From: an uncultured Bacillota bacterium
Lineage (GTDB): Bacteria > Bacillota > Clostridia > Peptostreptococcales > Anaerovoracaceae
Direction of reading: 5' to 3'
NCBI GenBank assembly: GCA_946541435.1
Contig: CAMNJK010000094.1
Coordinates: 1 to 6,280, forward strand
DNA: 6,280 nt
Shown: one piece after another, positions 3,184-5,088 of the stretch
Numbering within the stretch: the stretch's first letter is position 1
Layout: each line of letters opens with the position of its first letter
Position numbers and translations under genes: made by a program
Notes under the pieces: generated by a model
The model's input: the letters and a program-made list of their open reading frames with translations, nothing else
What the model was told of the DNA's origin: nothing
Databases searched by the model: none

Positions 3184-3279
3184 GGTTAACAAACTTGCAG
3201 CACGGGTTGACAAACAGGCAACGGAGGTTTACAATCCGAAGTGATGAACGTTTACAATTGCTGAGAGAAGTTTACGGTT
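3184..3279. repeat. Five direct repeats of a BirA-operator-like half-site upstream of bioY
   Basis: GTTAACAAAC (3185-3194), GTTGACAAAC (3206-3215), GTTTACAATC (3227-3236), GTTTACAATT (3250-3259) and GTTTACGGTT (3270-3279) all point the same way, with start-to-start distances of 21, 21, 23 and 20 bases. With its flanking G, the first reads GGTTAACAA (3184-3192), the right half of the Firmicutes BirA operator (TTGTTAACC, spacer, GGTTAACAA). No left half (TTGTNAAC) is present in the intergenic region. Repeats 2 and 3 contain the -35 and -10 of the bioY promoter. The last repeat is degenerate. BirA binding is inferred from the motif, the bioY target and the nearby birA. Confidence 0.7.
3207..3235 (+). 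promoter_or_regulatory. bioY promoter built from the repeat array
   Basis: TTGACA (3207-3212, 6/6) and TACAAT (3230-3235, 5/6) are separated by 17 bases. Each hexamer lies within one unit of the 21-bp-spaced repeat array; the repeat carrying the -35 has a G where its neighbours have A or T, which makes the -35 perfect. Predicted transcription start is near 3242, leaving repeats 4 and 5 in the leader. A protein on the repeats would exclude RNA polymerase. Confidence 0.75.
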
Positions 3280-3295: not shown

Positions 3296-3883
3296 ATGGT
3301 GTCCGGGACAAGACAAATGAAATATTCCAAAACAACGTATATGGCCCTGTGCGGATTGTTCGCCGCGCTGATGGCCATTTGTTCATTTATTTCCATTCCG
3401 CTGGGATTCACACCGGTGCCGGTCAATCTGGCTACACTGGGCGTGTTTCTGGCCGGCGGTCTGCTGGGGAAAAAATACGGGACCATCAGTCTGGCAGTCT
3501 ATGTGCTGCTGGGCGCGGTGGGCATCCCCGTTTTCGCCGAGTTCCGGGGCGGGCTCAGCGTCCTGGCCGGACCCACGGGCGGCTATATCATCGGATATAT
3601 CGCAGCAGCCTTTTTGGTCGGGCTGATCGTGGACGCAGGGCTGCAGGATCGCAGAAGCAGGATCGACCAGTCCCGGGGGCGCCAGCTCCTGATCTGTGTG
3701 ATCGCCATGATCATCGGTCTGCTGGCCTGCTATCTGCTGGGGACCATCTGGTTCATCGTCTCCACCCATACCGGGGTCGCCGCTTCTCTGGGCATGTGCG
3801 TGATCCCTTTCCTGCCCGGTGACGCGCTGAAGATCGCAGCAGGCGCCATTCTTGTACAGAAGCTGCGGCGGTATCTCAATTGA
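3296..3883 (+). CDS. bioY: BioY, substrate-binding S component of the biotin ECF transporter
   Basis: A 195-residue membrane protein that captures biotin outside the cell and works with the shared ECF energy module (EcfT and two ATPases), which is not encoded in this window. Hallmarks are FTPVPVNLATLGVFLAGG (38-55), where most homologues have a PVP..LQT-like stretch, the conserved LAGPTGGYIIGY segment (90-101), and PFLPGDALKI (171-180) before the last helix. About six hydrophobic segments fit the fold, and the length is usual. The start is uncertain: ATG 3296 has only GGGGCAGG upstream, and an in-frame ATG at 3317 has only GGGA; neither is a strong ribosome binding site, so poor initiation may be part of its control. 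The first 14 residues add little to the domain. It has its own promoter within a repeat array likely bound by BirA, and is closed by a terminator at 3945-3974. Confidence 0.93.
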   Translation: MVSGTRQMKYSKTTYMALCGLFAALMAICSFISIPLGFTPVPVNLATLGVFLAGGLLGKKYGTISLAVYVLLGAVGIPVFAEFRGGLSVLAGPTGGYIIGYIAAAFLVGLIVDAGLQDRRSRIDQSRGRQLLICVIAMIIGLLACYLLGTIWFIVSTHTGVAASLGMCVIPFLPGDALKIAAGAILVQKLRRYLN

Positions 3884-3944: not shown

Positions 3945-3974
3945 AAAAACCGGCTCCGGTGAAGCCGGTTTTTT
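3945..3974 (+). terminator. Intrinsic terminator of bioY
   Basis: AAAAACCGGCT (3945-3955) pairs with AGCCGGTTTTT (3963-3973), an 11-bp stem with a 7-base loop, followed by one more T for a run of six (3969-3974). The A-run on the left arm would also allow it to work on the reverse strand. It separates bioY from birA. Confidence 0.9.
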
Positions 3975-3975
3975 G

Positions 3976-4004
3976 TTGAAAGATGCCCGTTGTCGGCGTA
4001 AAAT
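3976..4004 (+). promoter_or_regulatory. birA promoter
   Basis: TTGAAA (3976-3981, 5/6) and TAAAAT (3999-4004, 5/6) are exactly 17 bases apart. The -35 starts two bases after the terminator's T-run. Predicted start is near 4011, leaving a leader of about 52 nt with GGAGGAG (4049-4055). No BirA-type half-site is present here, suggesting birA itself is not under the control proposed for bioY. Confidence 0.7.
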
Positions 4005-4062: not shown

Positions 4063-5088
4063 ATGACAGTGAAAGAGTCGGTGCTGCAGGCGTTGACAGA
4101 GAATAAAGGAACATATTATTCAGGCGGAAAACTGGCGGAGATCCTGGGCGTATCCCGGGCAGCCGTGTGGAAGGCCATCCGGTCCCTTCGGGAGGAGGGC
4201 TACCGTATCGATGCGGTGACCGGACGGGGCTATTGTCTCACGGTGGACCGGGCGCCGCTGACGGAAGAAGGGATCCGCCAGGCTTTGCCCCTGCGCTACC
4301 GGAACAACGGGATCTGTGTGTACGATGTCATCGATTCCACCAACATCCGGGCGCGGCAGATCGCGGCGGGCGCGGCGGAAGCTCCAAAGGCTGGTCCGGG
4401 CGGCGGACCGGCGCCCCTGCACGGGACGGCGGTGATCGCGCTCCAGCAGACAGCGGGCAAAGGCAGGCTGGGGCGGAGTTTCTTCTCACCCAAGGAAGGG
4501 ATCTACCTGAGCATCATCGTGCGGCCGGATTTTGATCTTTCCAGGTCGGTCCTGGTCACAGTAGCTGCCGCTGCCGCGGTGGCGGAGGCCATCGACGCAG
4601 TCTGCGGGCAGCAGGAAGAGGCCATGATCAAGTGGGTCAACGATGTCTACCTGGGCGGAAAGAAGGTCTGCGGGATCCTCACCGAGGGGATCACGGACTT
4701 CGAGAGCGGTCAGATCGATCATCTGGTCATCGGCATCGGCATCAATACGGATCTGGAAGGCTTCCCGGCGGAGCTTCTGGAGGTGGCCGGCGCGGTGGAA
4801 GGGGACTATTCCCGGGCAGAACTGGCAGCGCAGATCATCGCCCGGGTGCTGGATTATCTGGAGAACATCGACGCCAGGAAGTTTATGGACAGCTACCGCA
4901 GCAAGAGCCTTCTGACCGGACGGCAGATCCGCGTCTTCAAGGGCGTTTACCGGGCGGATCCGGAAAAGGATCTGACGGGGATCCCGGCCCGGGTGCTGGG
5001 GATCGACGGCGACGGCGGACTTGAGGTCATCTATGCCGATGGCAGCAGAGAAACGCTGACCACCGGGGAAGTCACGGTGCGCCTATGA
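4063..5088 (+). CDS. birA: BirA, bifunctional biotin protein ligase and biotin-operon repressor
   Basis: A 341-residue cytoplasmic enzyme that makes biotinoyl-AMP and transfers biotin to the carrier lysine of biotin enzymes, and as a dimer represses biotin genes. Residues 1-60 are a winged helix-turn-helix (recognition region about LGVSRAAVWKAIRSLREEG, 28-46; wing TGRGYCL, 53-59). The catalytic domain has DSTN (91-94), the ATP/biotin loop QQTAGKGRLGRSFFSP (128-143, GKGRLG in place of the GRGRRG-type loop), KWVNDVYLGGKKVCGILTE (190-208, with the lysine-containing KWxND motif), and GIGINT (224-229). The C-terminal domain covers about 285-341 with GGLEVIYADG. A Gly/Pro/Ala-rich stretch at 103-119 appears longer than the loop usually found between DSTN and the GTxVxAxxQ strand. 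Ribosome binding site GGAGGAG lies seven bases before the ATG. The HTH domain makes it the likely ligand of the repeat array before bioY. The stop overlaps the next start as ATGA. Confidence 0.95.
   Translation: MTVKESVLQALTENKGTYYSGGKLAEILGVSRAAVWKAIRSLREEGYRIDAVTGRGYCLTVDRAPLTEEGIRQALPLRYRNNGICVYDVIDSTNIRARQIAAGAAEAPKAGPGGGPAPLHGTAVIALQQTAGKGRLGRSFFSPKEGIYLSIIVRPDFDLSRSVLVTVAAAAAVAEAIDAVCGQQEEAMIKWVNDVYLGGKKVCGILTEGITDFESGQIDHLVIGIGINTDLEGFPAELLEVAGAVEGDYSRAELAAQIIARVLDYLENIDARKFMDSYRSKSLLTGRQIRVFKGVYRADPEKDLTGIPARVLGIDGDGGLEVIYADGSRETLTTGEVTVRL

Follow-up and report, generated by a model that had tools for sequence, protein, structure and literature searches.

In the window (the whole stretch of DNA analysed, a contig of 6,280 bases), the biotin transporter gene bioY is preceded by a head-to-tail row of BirA-type half-sites that probably represents, to judge from comparison with related genomes, a direct-repeat form of BirA's operator at bioY, one met repeatedly in the genus, with BirA as the predicted ligand. 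In this form GGTTNACAA(T) half-sites follow one another about 21 bp apart, and two of them hold the predicted -35 and -10 boxes. The TTGACA half-site of sampled relatives usually has an inverted left arm 22-25 bp upstream; in the genus that arm is gone and a half-site lies on the -10 box. On the best reading, the operator would have been rebuilt from inverted to direct, the -10 box having turned into a half-site and the left arm having been lost.

The array before bioY and its predicted promoter

Units were scored over the 8 scored positions of GGTTNACAA, with at least 7/8 defining a strong unit. The features of the array and the genes behind it are as follows.

3184..3192, + strand: unit 1, half-site GGTTAACAA, 5' of the predicted -35 box; 8/8 against GGTTNACAA
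3205..3213, + strand: unit 2, half-site GGTTGACAA, holding the predicted -35 box TTGACA (3207-3212); 8/8
3226..3234, + strand: unit 3, half-site GGTTTACAA, giving with the next base the predicted -10 box TACAAT (3230-3235); 8/8
3249..3257, + strand: unit 4, half-site CGTTTACAA, 3' of the predicted -10 box; 7/8
3269..3277, + strand: unit 5, degenerate half-site AGTTTACGG; 5/8, alone not distinguishable from chance
3296..3883, + strand: bioY, biotin transporter S component; Pfam BioY 154.6 bits, cut-off 25
3956..3968, + strand: terminator-like hairpin followed by a T run in the bioY-birA gap; weak, the scan having found 2 against 1.8 expected
3976..4004, + strand: promoter-like TTGAAA-17-TAAAAT before birA, free of half-sites; from the promoter scan
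4063..5088, + strand: birA, biotin ligase with N-terminal winged helix and proposed regulator; Pfam HTH_11 58.6 and BPL_LplA_LipB 66.4 bits

The row lies between the Vut_1 gene and bioY, with all units on the + strand, and the GTT of units 1 to 5 begins at 3185, 3206, 3227, 3250 and 3270 (steps of 21, 21, 23 and 20 bp). The longest chain in the window, counting units of at least 7/8 in one orientation at 20-23 bp steps, is four units; in 300 dinucleotide-preserving shuffles of the window it was one unit in 280 and zero in 20. The array of five same-direction units described in the earlier note is thereby real, with the qualification that four of its members are strong and the fifth is degenerate. 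Its description of BirA-type half-sites that lack an inverted partner holds (three units score 8/8 and one 7/8), as does its remark that only right halves are visible: no good TTGTNAACC left half stands at the classical distance in the array region, the one caveat being that the core GTTAAC of unit 1 is self-complementary and, read the other way, scores 5/8 as a left half. The window units thus carry the GGTTNACAA / TTGTNAACC half-site of the classical BirA operator and share its siting before biotin genes (bioY, birA, bioB) and its overlap with a promoter, here a predicted one. The inverted pair around a 14-16 bp spacer was sought in the window region and is absent from it, and the array is for that reason classed apart from the classical operator. 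At gathering thresholds, the window has no Rfam match that would indicate an RNA element.

The promoter scan places TTGACA-17-TACAAT, with 11 of 12 consensus matches, inside units 2 and 3; two further strong units stand outside this predicted promoter. A half-site surrounds each of the two promoter boxes, so promoter geometry too sets the 21-bp step, which is by itself no proof of contacts between neighbouring proteins. This is the point that the earlier interpretation missed. Its BirA-type direct half-sites stand, and the stacked dimers with graded, cooperative repression that it suggests would be one possible arrangement.

The contig encodes, in order, a choline-binding/YkuD protein, two small frames, the Vut_1 transporter, bioY, birA and the start of an ABC exporter. 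The first of these (22-1386) belongs to the cell wall and combines choline-binding repeats with a YkuD L,D-transpeptidase domain, and the consecutive small frames (1509-1910 and 1927-2298) have no Pfam or NCBIfam match. Before the Vut_1 gene, at 2313-2360, lies a full-consensus promoter, TTGACA-16-TATAAT. It is overlapped by a hairpin measuring some 14 bp (ACGTCCGGAAAGAT / ATCTTTTCCGGACGT) with a T run behind it; the hairpin was noticed by eye and is not among the sites of the terminator scan. For bioY there is an alternative start, the in-frame ATG at 3317, and relatives' matches mostly start near residue 8. The array probably controls bioY alone, since birA has its own promoter-like site, a weak hairpin before it and, in the 350 bp upstream, no half-site of at least 7/8. 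The window's assembly also holds a second BirA (G000:C64:6984-8024, L134; 48% identity) and a second BioY (G000:C186, L163; 32% identity), neither with a half-site upstream in the stretches seen. G000:C186 starts near a contig end, and the assembly may include foreign contigs.

Recurrence in the genus and the operators of its relatives

A genome-wide search for direct half-site pairs (gap 11-16) gave 43 matches in 30 of 49 genus genomes; the reversed-pattern control gave 5 over the same 49. The exact 21-bp step is found in 30 of the 43, without exception no more than about 200 bp upstream of birA, bioY or bioB; the two BioB proteins downstream score 390.7 and 387.7 bits (cut-off 225). The other 13 fall into 4 at birA or bioY and 9 elsewhere, several of the 9 inside open frames. 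The inverted pattern (gap 12-19) has matches in 5/49 genomes, including one match before birA (G021). To the genus, whose members are uncultured bacteria of the gut, belongs Candidatus Allocopromorpha excrementigallinarum, in which the direct-pair site of DVMP01000048.1 is that of G061:C163.

A second count took the regions upstream of birA and bioY, of which 96 were used (98 genes, 2 dropped for want of upstream DNA, with 3/49 genomes providing no usable region). Direct pairs make up 79 of the 91 close pairs, 46 of these at 20-23 bp and 41 at exactly 21; in 100 shuffles, direct pairs at 19-23 bp averaged 0.07 and never exceeded 1. Counted by region at 7/8 or better, a direct pair is present in 37 and an inverted one in 1; a further 29 have single units, and the last 29 have none. 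Counted by genome (n=46), the corresponding figures are 34, 1, 9 and 2. The 12 of 46 genomes that lack a direct pair include G005, where the genome-wide pattern search does find one and the bioY start was so placed that the region count missed it; gene starts were assigned by rule, in some cases to a codon that is no start codon (bioY of G064, G065:C37, G017:C4 and G000:C186). Several bioY genes that lack half-sites stand directly behind birA, and in 22 other genus genomes birA itself has a direct pair before it. Chains of units of at least 7/8 (n=37) number two units in 31 cases, three in 5 and four in 1, so that a long array is an exception in the genus, a chain of four being that of this window only.

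In 40 regions with a direct 21-bp pair at a looser threshold, both decamers are conserved, and the 11 bp between them never reach 55%. Most upstream units read GGTTGACAA(T) and most downstream units GGTTTACAAT, a -35 and a -10 box lying within one half-site each. Conservation extends to the flanks of the upstream hexamer, with GG before it at 88/97% and AAT after it at 95/95/72%. The earlier note had named loss of the repeats or of their spacing in relatives as the outcome that would count against it; both are kept in the genus, at bioY, birA and bioB. As a separate observation, nine genus genomes have a strong reverse-orientation unit before bioY, TTGTAAACC or one mismatch from it (G006, G007, G013, G014, G019, G020, G035, G064 and G070; loci L149, L147, L150, L123, L115, L146, L122, L118, L151 and L148), with TTGTT(G/T)AC about 21 bp further on. 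Two readings fit this second element, a direct repeat in the reverse direction or the arm of an inverted pair, degenerate in either case.

The proposed regulator itself is ordinary. The window BirA is canonical, winged helix included, and combines an N-terminal HTH with a biotin ligase domain as Group II (bifunctional) BirA proteins do. Its predicted monomer model is close to E. coli and S. aureus BirA, fitting ligase-only structures at about 2-3.4 A and the full-length E. coli/S. aureus proteins at 5.8-7.6 A. The N-terminal HTH is kept in 39/39 aligned genus BirA proteins (the alignment leaves aside fragments of G001, G004 and G024 and the BirAs of G015, G016, G028 and G067). In the region of the recognition helix, S31, R32 and K37 are invariant in 24 BirAs from both operator types. 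A set of 30 genomes was hand-picked for a classified operator, and 28 of them have a BirA match. Nine alignment columns are typical of the genus, some near residues 296-303, a comparison confounded by relatedness. A C-terminal stretch, Y296, P300 and E303, is conserved in genus BirAs and absent from most outgroup BirAs. A change in BirA as the cause of the direct operator was also considered; with the HTH kept and the genus-typical columns confounded, no conclusion was drawn from it.

In the order as a whole (297 genomes), the exact direct pattern is present in 8/15 genus genomes versus 19/282 others (a biotin gene was confirmed for two of the 19, G253 and G320, both bioY); for the classical inverted pattern, defined by a gap of 16-18 between 8-mers, the figures are 0/15 versus 61/282. 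BioY matches were found in 267/297 genomes. Among those listed, 79 non-genus bioY upstream regions were hand-picked, one to four per genus (one of 80 fetched stretches, L335, the second contig of G282, was left unscanned); an inverted pair is present in 34 of these and a direct pair in 2, and the others have single units (33) or none (10). Inverted pairs, whose half-sites stand 21-24 bp apart in these relatives, occur in 11/39 regions from other genera of the family and 23/40 from other families, and both direct pairs belong to other genera of the same family.

A further comparison is centred on the anchor, the half-site containing TTGACA; anchors near stretch ends were skipped, so that the 30 genus anchors are fewer than the pairs in the region count. 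A left arm of at least 6/8 at -22 to -25 accompanies 1/30 anchors in the genus versus 36/47 outside it, and a direct partner at +21 accompanies 23/30 versus 2/47; a -10-like box at 16-18 bp is present at 29/30 versus 39/47. Anchor and promoter therefore stayed, and the partner changed sides.

An exact-pair scan of named genomes returned at least 80 loci; among the matches listed, no fewer than 20 have the start of a birA, bioY or bioB relative at most 300 bp downstream. Among the same listed matches, the biotin-gene loci divide into 12 from the genus and 8 from other taxa, including Coprococcus catus, an Anaerotignum and Veillonella rogosae (before bioB), and the inverted left arm is kept as well at 7/8 other-taxa loci versus 1/12 genus loci and 2/59 of the remainder. 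Seven operators (L181, L184, L203, L211, L212, L220 and L227) have a left-right-right arrangement, an inverted BirA pair with a third, direct half-site on the -10 box; their targets are bioY and, in Veillonella rogosae (L211), bioB. Such operators plausibly represent a step between the inverted and the direct architectures. The likely course of evolution would then be that the -10 box became a half-site first, giving a left-right-right operator, and that the left arm was lost afterwards.

How BirA may occupy direct half-sites

When biotin is plentiful, BirA charged with biotinoyl-AMP would load one winged helix onto each half-site, and neighbouring BirA molecules would share roughly one DNA face at a distance of two helical turns. 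Occupied -35 and -10 boxes would exclude RNA polymerase from bioY, and in relatives from birA and bioB too, while units outside the promoter may raise occupancy or stop elongation. Loading of single half-sites is credible given that S. aureus BirA has a monomer pathway in which it binds a single half-site and represses, although its natural operators are inverted pairs (PMC6391492, available in part). A symmetric BirA dimer does not obviously fit direct repeats, and this counts against the array being a BirA operator.

A possible but doubtful alternative to such loading is a single asymmetric BirA dimer, one winged helix turned by about 180 degrees, spanning two direct units in the manner of ArdK or AraC. 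The ArdK precedent makes it credible too: the relatives ArdK and KorA differ in the repeats that they bind, direct for ArdK and inverted for KorA, owing to a rotation of one HTH (PMC9723621). Most chains in the genus are pairs (31/37), and the gap in fit between ligase-only and full-length structures would suit a movable winged helix, although this gap comes from a monomer model and may be a modelling effect. Triplets and lone units exist, however, and the spacing of extra units varies (20, 21, 23 and 25 bp, that is, 20-25 bp apart), for which reason loading of single half-sites would be preferred over one asymmetric dimer.

That another, unrecognised regulator took over BirA-type half-sites as direct repeats is improbable. 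Direct repeats are unusual for a symmetric repressor and the role of BirA here is predicted, which leaves some room for such a protein; against it, the half-site is half of the BirA consensus (as given in the available part of PMC545781), the targets are birA, bioY and bioB, the 39 aligned genus BirAs keep their HTH, and the anchor half-site is common to relatives that use an inverted BirA operator. Even less probable is that the repeats are a sigma-70 promoter only, the likeness of TTGACA and TACAAT to BirA half-sites being accidental. Units 2 and 3 do form a promoter-like site, and TTGACA-17-TACAAT is present in 49/49 genus genomes, but with half-site flanks at 21 bp all 30 of 30 matches lie at biotin genes, the bases outside the hexamers are conserved (GG before, AAT after) and two further strong window units lie outside the promoter; this explanation was rejected on target specificity and conserved flanks. 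Least probable of all, and rejected on half-site scores and genus anchor counts, is a classical but degenerate inverted operator formed by units 1 and 2 of the window, unit 1 being read in reverse through GTTAAC: although unit 1 has that left-half score of 5/8 and stands 22 bp before unit 2, inside the 21-24 bp of relatives, it scores 8/8 as a right half, most genus pairs are GGTTGACAA/GGTTTACAA and have no self-complementary core, and the left arm reaches 6/8 at only 1/30 genus anchors.

With the array taken as a direct-repeat BirA operator, a broader proposal can be framed, for and against which the chances seem to us about even: that BirA exchanged an inverted operator for a direct one through the merging of its half-sites with the -35 and -10 boxes, that BirA of the genus hence assembles in a non-C2 manner, as an asymmetric dimer or a head-to-tail row, and that the left-right-right operators of Coprococcus catus, an Anaerotignum and Veillonella rogosae keep the intermediate step.

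Known systems and implications

BirA sites are described as palindromic or inverted in the available parts of PMC545781, PMC5343134, PMC4861984 and PMC6391492, and the S. suis site in the excerpt of PMC4877710 has the same inverted look; the portions of PMC3840689 and PMC6593275 at hand contain nothing on site geometry. A literature search confined to one paper collection found no report of direct-repeat BirA operators. With the classical operator (TTGTAAACC-N14/15-GGTTTACAA; E. coli bioO, Firmicutes), the array shares the half-site, the kind of target gene, the promoter overlap and a winged-helix BirA encoded nearby. The classical form differs in being inverted, with one pair per site, whereas that of the genus is direct, with two to four units and a -10 box that is itself a half-site.

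The direct half-sites of AraC also follow a 21-bp step. AraC is likewise a symmetric dimer able to occupy direct half-sites, according to the accessible text of PMC9723621, but it is an activator of another fold with a flexible linker, and the likeness is an analogy only. ArdK (direct) and KorA (inverted) show, as here, one repressor family using either topology, and the direct TTGACA repeats of ArdK overlap a -35 box (PMC9723621, in the part available). ArdK is, however, an unrelated small plasmid repressor, with repeats about 10 bp apart instead of 21 and with a solved structure, whereas the present array is known from sequence.

Motif searches that presume an inverted BirA site would overlook regulons of this kind. 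Further, the operators of the genus and its relatives would constitute a sequence-level record of a change in operator topology with targets unchanged, in which a -10 box became a half-site and the old arm was then lost. BirA is a model case for coupling repressor dimerisation to the binding of an inverted operator. Given that the genus keeps both the DNA-reading helix of BirA and its half-site on direct repeats, the need of C2 dimerisation for repression becomes testable.
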